Program-made: the position numbers and the translations under genes
The notes under the pieces: model-generated
What the model was told of the DNA's origin: nothing
Seen by the model: only the letters and a program-made list of their open reading frames with translations
Databases searched by the model: none
Shown: positions 38,108-48,474 of the stretch, in pieces
Numbering within the stretch: the stretch's first letter is position 1
How the letters are laid out: every line of letters starts with the position of its first letter
NCBI GenBank assembly: GCA_017540505.1
Contig: JAFYAW010000001.1
Coordinates: forward strand, 1-53,570
Source of the DNA: Bacteroidales bacterium
GTDB lineage: Bacteria > Bacteroidota > Bacteroidia > Bacteroidales > WCHB1-69
Direction: 5' to 3'
Length of the DNA: 53,570 nucleotides

Positions 38108-38200
38108 CAAAAAAGTTGGAAGAGGAGGTGAATAGTGTCGAAAACAGATTTGTTATTTTTTTTGCCCTTTTTGTGTTTTTTGCATCCTATTAAAGAGGTT

Positions 38201-39241
38201 ATGACAGACACACAGGATTTTTGGACAAAGAAATACCGGCAGAACATCGGGAAGATGATCGGCTTGTGCCATCGGTATGTGATGGATCCCGCCTTGGCGG
38301 AGGATTTGGCGCATGAGGCGTTTCTGTTGGCTATCGAAAAGTCCGGATCCTTCAAGGGGATTGGCAGCTTTGACCGGTGGATGATGCGCATCACAACGAA
38401 TACGGTGTTGCAGCATCTGCGGAAAAAACAGTATCTCGTTCCAATGGATGATCTTTCCACCGCTGATTTGGAGGCTGCACCTGTGGATGAGGAGGAATTG
38501 GAACGGTACGATTTCACCCAGTCGGAGATTCTGGATGCTATAGCAGCCCTGCCCGTCGTGCAGCGTACCGTGTTCAACCTGTTTGTCTTTGAAAAATACA
38601 GCCATCGGGAAATTGCGGAAACGCTTTCCATGGCCGAGCGGACCTCCAAACGCCATCTCGCCCTGGCGCGCCAGCAGCTGCAACGTCTGCTGACCTGCAA
38701 AAAACACAAACAAATAAAGCTTATGATTCCTTTTTTCCTCATTTTCAAACGCGGTCATGCCGTGGATGATATCTGCCGTAGAACCCTTCGGGATTATGCG
38801 GTGGAACCTGCCGTGCCCTATGAAATGGAGTCTGTTCCATGGGGTTCTGTTCCCAAGATTCCCGTATTGTTGGCGGCCAAGGGCCTCTTCCTGGCGTTGG
38901 CAGTTGGTACCGTCATCTGCCTTATGGCGGGCTACGCCTTCACACGCCTCTTGCCGCACGCTGCCGGTTTGTCGCCCGCTGGCCCGTCCGCACCCGCAGC
39001 AGCTGCCGCCTGCGCACCGGCCGACACAGCCACATTTGGCGACGGCACAACCGAACCCAATGATATCCTAATGCGGAAGAACTCCGACCGTCCGTCTGGT
39101 GGGAAATTCCACTCCGTTGCATCTGTCCCCGACACCGCCGAGATTACAGAACCCCAATATGTCTATATTCGTGACACAGTGTATAAAACCGTGGTGAAAA
39201 CGGTCCATGACACGGTGTATGTTCCTATTTCAATGCCATAA
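38201..39241 (+). CDS. ECF-type sigma factor fused to a transmembrane segment and periplasmic DTVY tail
   Basis: A 346-residue protein in one uninterrupted frame. Residues about 10-75 match sigma-70 region 2 (FWTKKYRQNIGKMIGLCHRYVMDPALAEDLAHEAFLLA) and 110-165 match region 4 (LPVVQRTVFNLFVFEKYSHREIAETL). A hydrophobic segment at about 221-245 should cross the inner membrane, leaving a periplasmic tail 246-346 that is Pro/Ala-rich and ends with two DTVY motifs (325-328, 337-340). The start MTDTQDF is preferred to upstream in-frame codons. Usually sigma and its membrane anti-sigma factor are separate proteins; here both roles may be in one chain, so activation could need release by proteolysis. 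The next gene encodes a barrel with the same DTVY motif at its mature N-terminus. Target genes are unknown. Confidence 0.85.
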   Translation: MTDTQDFWTKKYRQNIGKMIGLCHRYVMDPALAEDLAHEAFLLAIEKSGSFKGIGSFDRWMMRITTNTVLQHLRKKQYLVPMDDLSTADLEAAPVDEEELERYDFTQSEILDAIAALPVVQRTVFNLFVFEKYSHREIAETLSMAERTSKRHLALARQQLQRLLTCKKHKQIKLMIPFFLIFKRGHAVDDICRRTLRDYAVEPAVPYEMESVPWGSVPKIPVLLAAKGLFLALAVGTVICLMAGYAFTRLLPHAAGLSPAGPSAPAAAAACAPADTATFGDGTTEPNDILMRKNSDRPSGGKFHSVASVPDTAEITEPQYVYIRDTVYKTVVKTVHDTVYVPISMP

Positions 39242-39304: not shown

Positions 39305-40858
39305 ATGCATAAAACCTCTTTATTCCTTTTATCGATTCTAATGTGTATGCAGTTGCATGGGCAGGCGCGCGACACGATCTACGTCGTGGAGGAGAAAATC
39401 GTCTATGACACTGTTTACATGCACGATACGATTTATTATCCGATGGTGGCGGAGCCGGATACGCCTGTTGCTCCCATCCGGACATCCGCCTTCGTGCCTG
39501 AGATTTTCAAAGGGTTCCATCTCGGATATGTTTTCCAGTACCAGCTGATGAGTCCGGCTGCCCTCATAAACTCTGACGGCGACAAAAGCTTTATAAAATC
39601 CCGACCGGGCAGCGGGTATGTTGGCGGGCTGGAGTTTTCCTATCATTTCGCGAAATATTTCGGCGTTTCAGCAGGGCTCGATTTCGGTTCCCACTATGCC
39701 AGTAACATCCATTATGAGGATGCGATTTATATAGGTGAAATTGCCCATTTCCGTCAATCCACGTTCGGCTTTTCCTTTCCCTTGAAATTTGAATTCCACA
39801 TGCCGTTTGATTCGCGGTTCTGGCTTGTGGCCGATATTGGAGTCCGGTTCAGCACACCCTATCCCAAACACAACAGCGAGATTTTCTTTGGGGCAGGTGC
39901 TCTGTTCGATCCGTCGTTTTCTTATCCAATAAGTACAGAATTTTATTCTGAAATAAAAAACGAACACCGCATCAACACGAGCTTCCTGATGGATTTGGGT
40001 TTCTATTACCGGCTGAAAAACAACGGCCTGCTACGCTTCACTCTTGGGGCCAATCTCTCCCCAGCAATGTTTTGGCATGGTCAGTACACATTTTCTACAC
40101 AAAATGCTGTCATAGAAAAAGGTACAATCTCCTTGAGAAACCAGTTCATATATCCGCAGATTGCATACATCCATACGTTCCAAAAGCATAAGGAGAAGAA
40201 TTTCCATAAAGTACCCTGGTACGATGAAGTGTCGCCGGGCTGGTCTGACGAGAAAACGTTCCACCGTCATGAGTTCCAGTTCAACGTCGGCATCCCGAAC
40301 CTACAGTCCGAATACAGCTCGTTGGTGATGTTTACCATTTTTTCTGATTGGTTTCCAAAACTATACAAAAAATATTTAATACGTCAGGAAGAATACAATC
40401 CCTATAATTGGACCTTGACCAGCGACACGTACCGCAAGGTCCGTTACACGCCGGTGATTTCCCTAAGTTATCATTACCGCGCCTACAAGTGGCTTTGGGT
40501 GGGCCTCACCGCTGACTTTTCTGAATTTTATGCCTATTACTACGACCGGCTGACGGACAAACGGGTGAAAGGACAATCCGAACACAACACCTTTTTTGAT
40601 TTGATGGCTGATCTGCGTTTCTCCTATCTCAACCGGAAACATGTGACGTTGTATTCTGAATTGTCAGGAGGCTTGCTGATAGGCAATTTCACCTCAAAAC
40701 AGGTGCAGCCAGTCGCAACAAACTATACTGCGTTTGCGGGGGCTGTCCACATCACGATGCTGGGTGTCAAGGCGGGTGCGAAAGGCTGGTTCGGCAATGT
40801 GGAGTTGGGCGCGGGCTTCAAGGGCCTCATTTCCGCCGGTTTTGGTTATGAGTTTTAG
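39305..40858 (+). CDS. outer-membrane beta-barrel protein with N-terminal DTVY motifs
   Basis: A 517-residue protein: signal peptide 1-20 (LSILMCMQLHG-QA), a short periplasmic segment with DTIY and DTVY motifs three times within residues 22-45, then about 450 residues of alternating amphipathic strands (LGYVFQYQL, GGLEFSYHFAKYFGVSAGLDFGSHY and so on) ending in GYEF with a C-terminal aromatic residue, the usual barrel signal. I do not recognise a named family. It is downstream of the sigma/TM fusion whose periplasmic tail carries the same motif, and upstream of a lipoprotein gene, so the three may form one regulatory or structural unit. The motif also occurs elsewhere in Bacteroidota secreted proteins, so the resemblance alone is weak evidence. 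Confidence 0.78.
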   Translation: MHKTSLFLLSILMCMQLHGQARDTIYVVEEKIVYDTVYMHDTIYYPMVAEPDTPVAPIRTSAFVPEIFKGFHLGYVFQYQLMSPAALINSDGDKSFIKSRPGSGYVGGLEFSYHFAKYFGVSAGLDFGSHYASNIHYEDAIYIGEIAHFRQSTFGFSFPLKFEFHMPFDSRFWLVADIGVRFSTPYPKHNSEIFFGAGALFDPSFSYPISTEFYSEIKNEHRINTSFLMDLGFYYRLKNNGLLRFTLGANLSPAMFWHGQYTFSTQNAVIEKGTISLRNQFIYPQIAYIHTFQKHKEKNFHKVPWYDEVSPGWSDEKTFHRHEFQFNVGIPNLQSEYSSLVMFTIFSDWFPKLYKKYLIRQEEYNPYNWTLTSDTYRKVRYTPVISLSYHYRAYKWLWVGLTADFSEFYAYYYDRLTDKRVKGQSEHNTFFDLMADLRFSYLNRKHVTLYSELSGGLLIGNFTSKQVQPVATNYTAFAGAVHITMLGVKAGAKGWFGNVELGAGFKGLISAGFGYEF

Positions 40859-45958: not shown

Positions 45959-46885
45959 CTATTTCCGAAGGATCGTTACGGTACCCGTCAGCGTTTGGCT
46001 GATGTTACGGTTGGAGAAAATGAAACGGTAACGGTATGTGCCGTCGGGACAGTTGTCGCCGGCCCAATCGTTCTCGTAACGACTGCTTTGGAACACGATG
46101 TTGCCGGCCTGGTTGCGCATCTCAAGTTGGCGTTTCTCGCAGTTTTCGATACCCTTGATGACAAACCGGTCGTTGATGCCGTCGCCGTTGGGTGTGAATA
46201 CATTGGGGATTTCCACCTTGGTCGGCGGGGTCCAGTCGATGGCATCTTCCGAAAGATTTTGCAACACGGGGTCGTCTTGCATGTTCTGGGAGAGGACAGA
46301 AGGCTGGTTTAATGAAACTTGCCCTAAGGTTGTATTCGTGGAGAGCGAAGGCTTTGCCGCTTGGGGGGCGAGGACGGGTTGTGCGGTGATGGTCGTGGGA
46401 GTCGGATGGGATGGTGCTGGCGTGGTTGTGGATGGAGCGTCAGGGGTGCTTACAGGTTCGGCATCCGCAGCCGAAGTCGGCATGTTGGTTTGGACATCTG
46501 TTTTCTCTTTATTGACAACGGGTTCCGTGTTTCCTATGTTGGAGGTGGAGGGAATGGCATTATTCTCTTCAGATGTGTCGGCGACCGTCATTGTGGTGGA
46601 TGGGGTGTTGTCTGTTTGGGCCGTTTCAGCAGAGTTCGGACGCAGCACGACGAAGGTGACCACGCCGCCCACAATGAGGGCACCCGTTATGGTGGCGGCG
46701 ATCTTCGCGCCCACGGAGTGCAGAAGGGCCGCACCCTTGCCCGCAGACGTGCCCGCCGCCGATGACGACGACGTGTCGGCAGATGCCTGCGCCGCAGCCG
46801 CATCCAGCCGCTGGCTGAGCTTGTCCCAGCAGCCGGCCGACGGCTCGACCTCGTAAGCGGATAATATGTCCTTGATGTTCTTCAT
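45959..46885 (-). CDS. putative anti-sigma factor with periplasmic T9SS type B sorting domain
   Basis: A 308-residue protein without an N-terminal signal peptide. Residues 1-59 are cytoplasmic in the likely topology and begin KNIKDILSAYEVEPSAGCWDKLSQRLD, like short Bacteroidota anti-sigma regions. One transmembrane helix is at about 60-81. A Ser/Thr/Pro-rich periplasmic linker of about 140 residues leads to a complete gliding-motility/T9SS type B C-terminal domain (224-308: KVEIPNVFTPNGDGINDRF ... GTYRYRFIF ... GTVTILRK). The gene starts one base after the ECF sigma gene, the classical position of an anti-sigma factor. A cleavage-targeted sorting domain on a membrane-tethered protein is unusual: it cannot be released like normal T9SS cargo unless it is first cut. 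It may sense T9SS activity. The regulatory function is inferred from context. Confidence 0.75.
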   Translation of the reverse strand: MKNIKDILSAYEVEPSAGCWDKLSQRLDAAAAQASADTSSSSAAGTSAGKGAALLHSVGAKIAATITGALIVGGVVTFVVLRPNSAETAQTDNTPSTTMTVADTSEENNAIPSTSNIGNTEPVVNKEKTDVQTNMPTSAADAEPVSTPDAPSTTTPAPSHPTPTTITAQPVLAPQAAKPSLSTNTTLGQVSLNQPSVLSQNMQDDPVLQNLSEDAIDWTPPTKVEIPNVFTPNGDGINDRFVIKGIENCEKRQLEMRNQAGNIVFQSSRYENDWAGDNCPDGTYRYRFIFSNRNISQTLTGTVTILRK

Positions 46886-46886
46886 T

Positions 46887-47447
46887 CTACCTTAACTGTT
46901 CTTGTTCGTTGATTTTGTTGAGTAACCATGCCCTCGCCCGCTGGAAATAAACCCGGATGGTGTTTTCATTGCGCCCCAGCTCTTCGGCTATCTCCTTGAA
47001 ACTGTATTCTTCCATGATGCGCAGGTTGAAAATGATCCTCCAGTCTTCCGGCATCTCCTGCACGAGGGCAAGCACCTGCTGCGCCTCCAACTTTGTCAGA
47101 ATGTCGCTCCCCGTGGAGGTGGATGCCTGTATGTTTTGGGCTTCGGTGATCTCGTCGTGCAAGAGGAATTTCTTGTGCGCTCGGAAGGTGTTGATGGCGG
47201 TTTTGACCATGATTCCTCGTATCCAGACGGGCAAAGAACTCTCGTGACGAAAAGAGGACAGACTGCTGAAGACGCTTGCAAACCCTTCAATCATAATGTC
47301 TTCCGCTTCCTCCTTGGTGGGAGCGTACCGGCAGCACACCCCTAACATGGCGGGAGCAAAAAGTTCATACAATCGATATTGGGCCTTTCGGTCTTGTTGC
47401 AGACAACCGTCAATCAGCTTCTCTATGTCCTGTATGTGTTTCGCCAC
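46887..47447 (-). CDS. ECF RNA polymerase sigma factor
   Basis: A 186-residue ECF sigma factor: region 2 at about 20-90 (LYELFAPAMLGVCCRYAPTKEEAEDIMIEGFASVFSSLSSF) and region 4 at about 125-175 (MPEDWRIIFNLRIMEEYSFKEIAEELGRNENTIRVYFQRAR). The length is normal and both domains are intact. Its stop codon is one base before the start of the T9SS-domain protein, so they are co-transcribed and probably form a sigma/anti-sigma pair. I could not identify an autoregulatory -10/-35 pair upstream, nor its targets. The regions match sigma factors used for envelope responses in Bacteroidota, including the SigP type that controls T9SS genes in Porphyromonas gingivalis; orthology is not shown. Confidence 0.92.
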   Translation of the reverse strand: MAKHIQDIEKLIDGCLQQDRKAQYRLYELFAPAMLGVCCRYAPTKEEAEDIMIEGFASVFSSLSSFRHESSLPVWIRGIMVKTAINTFRAHKKFLLHDEITEAQNIQASTSTGSDILTKLEAQQVLALVQEMPEDWRIIFNLRIMEEYSFKEIAEELGRNENTIRVYFQRARAWLLNKINEQEQLR

Positions 47448-47493: not shown

Positions 47494-48474
47494 TTATTTG
47501 AGGGATTTCACGATGCTCTCCACTTCACGGAGATAATCCCGCTTCTCCTCCTGTGGGGCATAGACGAACCCGTCGATGGTGATGCAGGAGTCCTGATCGG
47601 GGGTCAGCATGGTGAAGCTGTAGAAGGGCCCGCCCATCTTGTCGCGCACGGATGCCCACAGACCTCGCAGTTCGATGCCGTCGTGATAGTGGATTTTGTA
47701 TTCCTGTGACAGCGGAAGTCCTTCCAAGTCGGCCACGATGGGGTAGGCCCCTTGCACGGCTCCTTGGATGTACGCCTTGGTGATGCGGTTACGCTCTTCC
47801 ACCACTTTTTTGGCAGTGAGCGGATAGGCTTCGGACTTGTATATCATGATGAAACGGTCGTTCTTGGGGGTACGGTACAGCAACCAGAGGAAGTCGGGCT
47901 CTTCCCGTCCCACAATATAACTTTCCGGAATCGTCAGGGAAATGCCGAATTTTTGCTTTATCTTCTTCTCCAAAGTGGGATTGTTGAGGTTGCGGTGTGC
48001 GTTCTGCAGTCGCGCGATGTCGTTATCGTACATGGCTTGGATGATCTCATCCTTATGCTGCAGGAACAGGGCCAGACAGGTGTCTTGGTTGTTGCCACGA
48101 ATCACCACCTGGATTTGCGGACTGCTGTAAGGATTCTCCTTCAGCTCGTATTGGTTGCCCCCATAGTTCGGGTTATAGTCGAACTGGACGATGTTGCGGT
48201 GCCGCATGAAGGAGGCAAGCAGATCCTTGTTGCTGCATTGGAGCACGTCGAACATCGGCTGGATTTGGTTGATGGCAGGCTGCGGCTGCTGGATGACGTC
48301 GTAGATGCACTGGATGGCCGCCGGAGTCCAATAGGCGGTGTCGATAGCCAAAATCATCTCCCCGGCTTTCCCATTGGAGAAATTGTTGGACTTGAATGCC
48401 GGCGTGGAACTCTTCTTGCAGGCCCCGAACACCAGCGCAACTGCCACTAAAAGAATGTAAACGATGTTTTTCAT
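47494..48474 (-). CDS. DUF4837-family lipoprotein
   Basis: A 326-residue lipoprotein, MKNIVYILLVAVALVFGAC with lipobox Cys19. The mature protein contains two similar halves and the segments MILAIDTAYWTPAAIQCIYDVIQQPQPAINQIQPMFDVLQCSN and WASVRDKMGGPFYSFTMLTPDQDSCITIDGFVYAPQEEKRDYLRE, which are characteristic of DUF4837, a family restricted to Bacteroidota. The function is unknown. The ATG is chosen because the reading continues upstream into a sequence without sense that overlaps dprA on the other strand. It lies 46 bases downstream of the ECF sigma start region, on the same strand; its own -7 element overlaps the dprA promoter. Confidence 0.88.
   Translation of the reverse strand: MKNIVYILLVAVALVFGACKKSSTPAFKSNNFSNGKAGEMILAIDTAYWTPAAIQCIYDVIQQPQPAINQIQPMFDVLQCSNKDLLASFMRHRNIVQFDYNPNYGGNQYELKENPYSSPQIQVVIRGNNQDTCLALFLQHKDEIIQAMYDNDIARLQNAHRNLNNPTLEKKIKQKFGISLTIPESYIVGREEPDFLWLLYRTPKNDRFIMIYKSEAYPLTAKKVVEERNRITKAYIQGAVQGAYPIVADLEGLPLSQEYKIHYHDGIELRGLWASVRDKMGGPFYSFTMLTPDQDSCITIDGFVYAPQEEKRDYLREVESIVKSLK

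Follow-up and report, generated by a model that had tools for sequence, protein, structure and literature searches.

Dma1, an anti-sigma factor, was reportedly presented in a 2024 PNAS paper. In the available part of its description, Dma2 has an anti-sigma domain followed by a helix and, at the far end of a long disordered tether, a barrel as its C-terminal part; it acts on a neighbouring ECF21 sigma factor (PMC13088901). A second point of comparison is PorA of Porphyromonas gingivalis, a CTD-bearing protein that feeds, via PorXY-SigP, an ECF sigma factor controlling T9SS genes, a route for which a T9SS feedback is proposed in the accessible part of the source (PMC7712824). Regarding type B sorting domains, the accessible portions of two studies indicate that they bind PorP/SprF-like outer-membrane barrels, that their secretion depends on these barrels and on SprA, that five motifs are needed for secretion, and that a domain and its cognate shuttle are presumably produced at near-stoichiometric levels (PMC9143113, PMC12618676). 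The gene pair described here bears on how the state of the T9SS is sensed in Bacteroidota and on which signal is received by Dma-type anti-sigmas. No recognisable description of an anti-sigma factor with a T9SS sorting domain was found in the literature searched, most subscription papers lying outside that search.

The window, by which we mean the whole stretch of DNA analysed here (53,570 nucleotides of contig JAFYAW010000001.1, assembly GCA_017540505.1, from a Bacteroidales bacterium), belongs to a genome of 2.5 Mb in 51 contigs that is 91% complete. On its minus strand, an ECF sigma gene is followed after one base by the gene of a membrane anti-sigma candidate (Table 1). The sigma factor matches TIGR02937 with 83.7 bits as well as Pfam Sigma70_r2 and Sigma70_r4_2 above their cut-offs, that is, the sigma2 and sigma4 domains within ~180-200 aa by which ECF (group 4) members are recognised. 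In the candidate, residues 224-303 score 67.2 bits against PF13585 (CHU_C; cut-off 27). The match to TIGR04131, the family of T9SS type B sorting domains, reaches 38.6 bits against a cut-off of 35, and 41.6 bits when the whole genome is searched. These matches confirm the initial annotation, which had described a sigma gene and a closely spaced gene whose product ends in a type B domain; the succession of short head, one helix, Ser/Thr/Pro linker and sorting domain that it proposed was likewise recovered. No N-terminal signal peptide is visible by eye in the window protein, whose only strong hydrophobic stretch follows residues 1-57. The hydropathy peak of the close relatives L009-L011 covers residues 61-81, and in all 51 distinct relatives the strongest hydrophobic stretch starts only between residues 42 and 75, at odds with a cleavable N-terminal Sec signal peptide. 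With an apparent signal anchor in place of a cleavable signal peptide, the anti-sigma candidate should remain in the cell. An AlphaFold model (seven sequences) displays a helical head and C-terminal beta strands, with a pLDDT of 22-31 over most of the tether and a mean of 39.6, a value at which the model is no evidence of fold. The DUF4837 gene is a probable operon partner of the sigma gene and a conserved neighbour: of the 50 distinct pairs that have 300 or more bases to spare, 23 have a DUF4837 gene 1-54 bases upstream of the sigma gene. A promoter alignment upstream of DUF4837 gave no defensible signal.

Table 1. Coordinates of the features discussed in the text; positions refer to the window unless a locus or contig is named.
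Feature	Location	Strand	Remarks
Membrane anti-sigma candidate with C-terminal T9SS type B sorting domain	45959..46885	-	308 aa, stop included
Cytoplasmic head, residues 1-57	46715..46885	-	Trp20, PSxxxW-like motif; hydrophilic
Single membrane helix, about residues 58-83	46637..46714	-	hydropathy; boundaries by eye
Thr/Pro/Ser-rich tether, about residues 84-223	46217..46636	-	low complexity
CHU_C / T9SS type B sorting domain, residues 224-308	45962..46216	-	Pfam and NCBIfam matches
ECF sigma factor gene	46887..47447	-	186 aa, GTG start, stop included
DUF4837 lipoprotein-like gene	47494..48462	-	PF16125 230 bits; 46 bases upstream of sigma gene
ECF sigma factor with C-terminal extension	38135-39241	+	368 aa; sigma domains 34-182, helix about 239-257
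Gene after the sigma fusion	39305-40858		probably secreted protein, no Pfam match
Similar sigma fusion	L075 1458-2528		
Similar sigma fusion	L073 1103-2545		
Second sigma/CHU_C anti-sigma pair and neighbours	L025 1647-6511		own genome, C18
sprA	G000:C5:70643-77662		own genome, outside window; TIGR04189 match
Other-class sigma and CHU_C protein	L330 164-2278	-	G086:C3, contig minus strand; full stretch of L126
Anti-sigma-like protein beside clade sigma	L245 1356-2141	-	
Anti-sigma-like protein beside clade sigma	L249 699-1451	+	

From its sequence, we take the window protein for an anti-sigma of the Dma kind in which a T9SS type B domain serves as the outer-membrane module. It shares with Dma a head, one helix, a long disordered tether, an outer-membrane C-terminal module and a gene beside that of an ECF sigma, a likeness drawn through the barrel-type proteins found here and the published description, the Dma sequences themselves lying outside the comparison. 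The two differ in the module, which is a beta-barrel in the same chain in Dma and a type B sorting domain in the window protein. That the design is a variant of the known Dma class with the barrel replaced had been missed in the initial annotation, to which a second pair in the same genome was not known. The type B cargo proteins SprB and PG1035 carry a C-terminal domain of the same family with conserved residues, whereas the window protein, set against the accessible accounts of them, has a signal anchor after a 57-residue head, linkage to a sigma gene and no adhesin repeats (PMC9143113, PMC12618676). PorA resembles it in feeding an ECF sigma from a CTD-bearing protein, but is a signal-peptide-bearing surface protein that works through a two-component system, is not an anti-sigma factor and, in the available part of the source, is reported solely from Porphyromonas (PMC7712824).

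The own genome contains 11 matches to TIGR04131 and 10 to the window sigma, itself included. Two of the 11 sorting domains, those of the window and of contig C18, are encoded directly downstream of an ECF sigma gene, for a chance expectation of ~0.05 such pairs (Poisson P ~0.001, with the gene number estimated from genome size). In the C18 pair the genes overlap by 4 bases, and the second protein is again made of head, helix, linker and CHU_C. A contig scan for homologues yielded eight loci, two of which match the sorting domain alone and six of which are full-length (L009-L014, from MAGs titled Bacteroidales bacterium), all six with the sigma gene directly upstream. A profile built on nine proteins of the anti-sigma/CHU_C kind (A1) matched 104 of 104 genomes searched in the own family, a figure that is uninformative alone because any CHU_C would match; the rows listed correspond, by eye, to open frames of 250-400 aa in all but about a dozen cases. 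A sigma gene lies directly upstream in 30 of 30 family loci fetched; the window locus is one of them, and several of L009-L014 and L031 recur there as copies. The order kept in these loci, together with the second own-genome pair, rules out coincidental neighbours. The spacing between both genes ranges from -23 to +56 bases in 62 rows, 51 of them distinct (starts chosen by script).

The distribution of the pair was followed beyond the family. An order-wide search covered 393 genomes with at most six scored candidates each, and among the matches listed 46 loci were inspected; 23 were pairs (21 distinct), found in seven further families, by family codes, besides the own one, and no sigma gene of the window-sigma clade was seen at the other 23. 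A less biased sample took every third genome of G002-G098, that is, 33 genomes, one per family, and employed a sigma profile representing both types of anti-sigma partner (A5). Rows of at least 128 bits numbered 78 and were absent from four of the 33 genomes; 77 loci were fetched, the partial row G047:C666 being dropped. According to in-house profiles, the protein downstream is of the CHU kind in 10, a barrel in 28 (at least five of which are loci among the 17 that built the barrel profile), something else in 38 and missing at a contig end in one. The class of other proteins comprises barrels missed by the profile (L252 and L279 are above a Pfam cut-off), truncated ends and a distinct short set of ~160-200 aa. 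The Pfam cut-off is exceeded by all of the 10 CHU proteins but L256 (21.9 against 27). All searches taken together, pairs of the window-sigma clade occur in 16 family codes, or 17 including the sub-threshold L256. Outside the order, no upstream sigma gene was found among the 29 best loci of a search of the phylum (the own one left out; at most five scored candidates per genome, cargo listed first).

Several further observations concern the sigmas found in these searches and their neighbours. A second sigma subgroup with ~130-180 bits to A5 (L243, L244, L271-L273, L276-L278, L282, L283, L285-L289 and L291) precedes proteins of ~130-200 aa, most of which open with an NRxxFDxxEP-like sequence and have a single helix. 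At L245 and L249, clade sigmas have anti-sigma-like neighbours of 251-262 aa; their small C-terminal domain, named by neither Pfam nor NCBIfam, is perhaps a third outer module. A type A sorting domain, suspected on them by eye, was not confirmed by either database. At L137, L139 and L140 it is the end of the upstream gene that resembles, by eye, a T9SS type A sorting domain.

The relationship to barrel-type anti-sigmas was examined with the 17 top-scoring sigmas (L187-L197 and L200-L205, at least 163 bits) from 14 genomes chosen for having no A1 match. All 17 are followed by a protein of 351-463 aa with a similar head, one helix from about residue 41-63 and a C-terminal outer-membrane barrel; other genes follow at the 13 lower-scoring loci. 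Pfam OMP_b-brl families matched in each of the 10 proteins scanned, above a cut-off in eight, and the tethers of 10 measured barrel types span 110-155 residues. In hhalign comparisons, the heads of the CHU type and of the barrel type align with a probability of 98.4% on 60 residues and 97.4% on 42, compared with 62% and 9.7% for CHU heads against eight control anti-sigma-like heads; barrel heads against the controls reach 86.8% on 60 residues, helix included, and 15.7% on 42, and 50 column shuffles give at most 3.7%. Judging from these alignments, the heads of both types are homologous. The head Trp is missing in two of the 17 barrel types (L196 and L205), and that of L190 sits near the helix. 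No OMP family matched at E 0.001 among the 29 members of profile A3, which gathers diverse CHU-type proteins. The partner sigmas cluster with those of the barrel-type anti-sigmas: in a tree of 80 sigmas, where L009 (96% identical) represents the window sigma, both types stand together, with the three other ECFs L026, L030 and L213 in their midst, and a 99/98 branch separates them from nine further ECFs. The CHU label changes twice in this tree, one change coming from L137 on a long branch; a sorting-domain tree made to date the recruitment gave no resolution (7 label changes, 95 columns). The same head thus precedes CHU_C or a barrel, so one anti-sigma head appears to serve either of two outer-membrane modules. 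This natural swap on one head suggests that the task of the C-terminal module is to meet the outer membrane.

The head also bears on whether the window protein might simply be T9SS cargo like any other, namely an adhesin whose N-terminus is unusual and whose place beside a sigma gene is due to chance. Its C-terminal domain is indeed that of cargo, most CHU_C proteins examined are cargo-like, and a sigma gene is absent from the fetched stretch of 39 of the 40 best TIGR04131 loci listed in the order, so that CHU_C proteins in general are not anti-sigmas. Such a cargo would, however, have to account for the sigma gene kept upstream throughout the fetched family loci and in many other families, and for a Trp-bearing head with an internal helix common to all 51 distinct relatives. 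The conservation of this head and its homology to the heads of Dma-like barrel anti-sigmas lead us to reject the cargo reading, which we hold to be very improbable. The same head homology, together with the invariant Trp of 29 members, supports the pairing of sigma and anti-sigma suggested in the initial annotation.

Conservation was assessed along the protein. Met1, Trp20 and five residues of the sorting domain are invariant in 29 diverse aligned members, the 29 of profile A3 all matching PF13585. A Trp lies within the first 45 residues in 51 of 51 distinct proteins besides that of the window, and the head Trp is present in nine of the 10 further sampled CHU proteins, L254 lacking it. The tether measures 131-219 residues (mean 158) in 48 relatives, the domain motif not being found in the remaining three of 51; its sequence barely aligns, yet its length is never below 131 in those 48. 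Comparison of the window with L009, L010 and L011 gave, respectively, dN/dS values of 0.07, 0.05 and 0.10 for the sigma factor; 0.45, 0.11 and 0.30 for the head; 1.33, 0.45 and 0.50 for the helix (26 codons); 0.46, 0.48 and 0.36 for the linker; and 0.137, 0.125 and 0.132 for residues 206-308, which contain the sorting domain. The sorting domain is under purifying selection. Synonymous divergence of L010 and L011 from the window protein amounts to 0.68-0.71 in the linker, 0.33-0.45 in the sorting domain and 0.19-0.22 in the head, as if linkers were exchanged by recombination.

A maintained domain could still have changed its job, becoming a repurposed beta-sandwich that has given up its contact with the T9SS and senses some other periplasmic input (a ligand, peptidoglycan or envelope stress). 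Among five sampled CHU proteins scored with NCBIfam, L254 alone passes the TIGR04131 cut-off and L260 misses it by 0.1 bit, scores which imply that some domains may have drifted from their secretion function; PKD domains precede CHU_C in eight of the 10 sampled proteins; and the specificity of type B shuttles lies partly outside the conserved motifs, according to the accessible part of one study (PMC12618676). The window domain itself, however, scores above both cut-offs. Nine large CHU_C proteins of its own genome were considered and six of them compared; with their sorting domains it shares 29-36% identity and the conserved residues. The domain of the C18 pair is 33-46% identical to the same six, and neither domain is degenerate. 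Since the pair genomes tested also carry sprA throughout, as detailed below, we regard a complete loss of T9SS interaction as unlikely.

The association with the T9SS was examined through sprA. The initial annotation had placed the T9SS genes outside the window, which holds, and sprA was found elsewhere in the genome (Table 1). No match to a PorP/SprF-like gene was obtained in the ~0.41 Mb of the 2.5-Mb genome scanned by motif. A search for TIGR04189 (SprA) covered 28 of the genomes with pairs and was positive in every one, among them G000, G001, G039, G079, G094 and, with a sub-threshold sorting domain, G056. No sigma/CHU_C pair was seen in 11 sprA-negative genomes (G008, G059, G088, G091, G092, G208, G215, G227, G266, G358 and G390): eight have no A1 match, G358 and G390 are not among the matches listed, and G092 (74% complete) has CHU_C matches with no adjoining sigma gene. 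The restriction of the pair to T9SS-positive species, which had been named as the test that could refute the initial proposal, therefore withstood this comparison, although the co-occurrence is weak evidence alone because CHU_C is almost absent without a T9SS. The head of profile A3 alone finds barrel-type anti-sigmas beside sigma genes in the sprA-negative G059, G266 and G358. Barrel types also occur in sprA-positive genomes (G021, G074, G210, G211, G207, G294, G380 and G426), a circumstance overlooked in the initial annotation; which module is used is therefore not a matter of sprA only.

Related arrangements were noticed in the window and at other loci. The sigma factor that appears fused to a C-terminal extension (Table 1) gives the impression of a single chain combining a sigma with its own anti-sigma; similar fusions occur at L075 and L073, and L030 has an unfused sigma, a lipoprotein, a helix protein and a barrel-like gene. 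In L025, two genes come after the C18 pair, one M16 peptidase-like (PF05193, 106 bits) and the other for a 687-aa protein with a sub-threshold CHU_C. Of the 51 distinct pairs, seven, belonging to three family codes, adjoin an M16-peptidase relative, whereas the 17 barrel-type and the 10 further CHU loci searched showed none. At L330, the full stretch of L126, which counts among the 23 order-wide loci without a sigma gene of the window-sigma clade, the sigma belongs to a different ECF class (182 aa; A5 gives 76 bits). The gene 36 bases downstream of it encodes 509 aa with a PEGYF-type head (class by eye), a helix near residue 71 and a C-terminal CHU_C, which seems to be a second anti-sigma class with the same sorting domain. 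L134 resembles the L126 locus and ends at a contig edge, and L331 (G289) resembles L330 and is cut at a contig end.

Taken on the Dma plan, the pair would act as a trans-envelope sigma/anti-sigma switch in which the type B domain docks at the outer membrane and lost docking frees the sigma factor, a reading that we favour as reasonably probable. We infer its steps, from sigma binding and docking to signal direction, proteolysis and regulon, as follows. The cytoplasmic head would hold the ECF sigma, with the one helix in the inner membrane, the long disordered tether crossing the periplasm and the C-terminal module reporting from the outer membrane. As the known partners of type B domains are PorP/SprF-like outer-membrane barrels and the SprA translocon, the barrel for the window protein would be supplied in trans. 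Most likely, the domain would dock while shuttle or translocon sites are free, and docking could be lost when there is no free shuttle, when the T9SS is broken or when the outer membrane is disturbed. The exposed tether would then undergo periplasmic and afterwards intramembrane proteolysis, freeing the sigma factor. As type B shuttles are presumably scarce, the tethered domain would compete with clients for them, as a load sensor needs. An alternative of opposite sign would have docking pull on the anti-sigma and thereby release the sigma factor.

A tether of at least 131 residues can span the periplasm, and this length would also allow a different topology: the T9SS would thread the domain to the cell surface, so that the anti-sigma passes through the inner membrane and, by way of translocon or shuttle, through the outer one, sensing outside contact or ligands. 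Type B domains are normally surface-exposed on PorP/SprF-like barrels, in the available part of the source (PMC9143113), which favours this topology. Yet SprA could be blocked by a chain that stays anchored in the inner membrane, no sign of surface exposure emerged here, and no receptor domain is present beyond PKD in some relatives; we consider threading to the surface rather improbable. Under the preferred reading, docking at the outer membrane, it is plausible that the anti-sigma candidate senses secretion status. A broader proposal, which we advance only tentatively and hold to be somewhat doubtful, is that of a widespread T9SS secretion-status sensor whose type B bait reads the occupancy of translocon or shuttles and frees an ECF sigma if export is saturated or broken; it would have arisen by exchange between Dma barrel and secretion signal, in either direction, with at least one other anti-sigma class apparently carrying the same bait.

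Since the known type B ligands can be deleted one by one, the sensor idea is open to a clean test. If it is true, a secretion signal would be serving as the bait of a sensor and not as an export tag. Many rumen and related Bacteroidales, which could thereby monitor their secretion apparatus or their outer membrane, seem to control a sigma factor by means of a membrane-tethered brake that ends in a T9SS export label.
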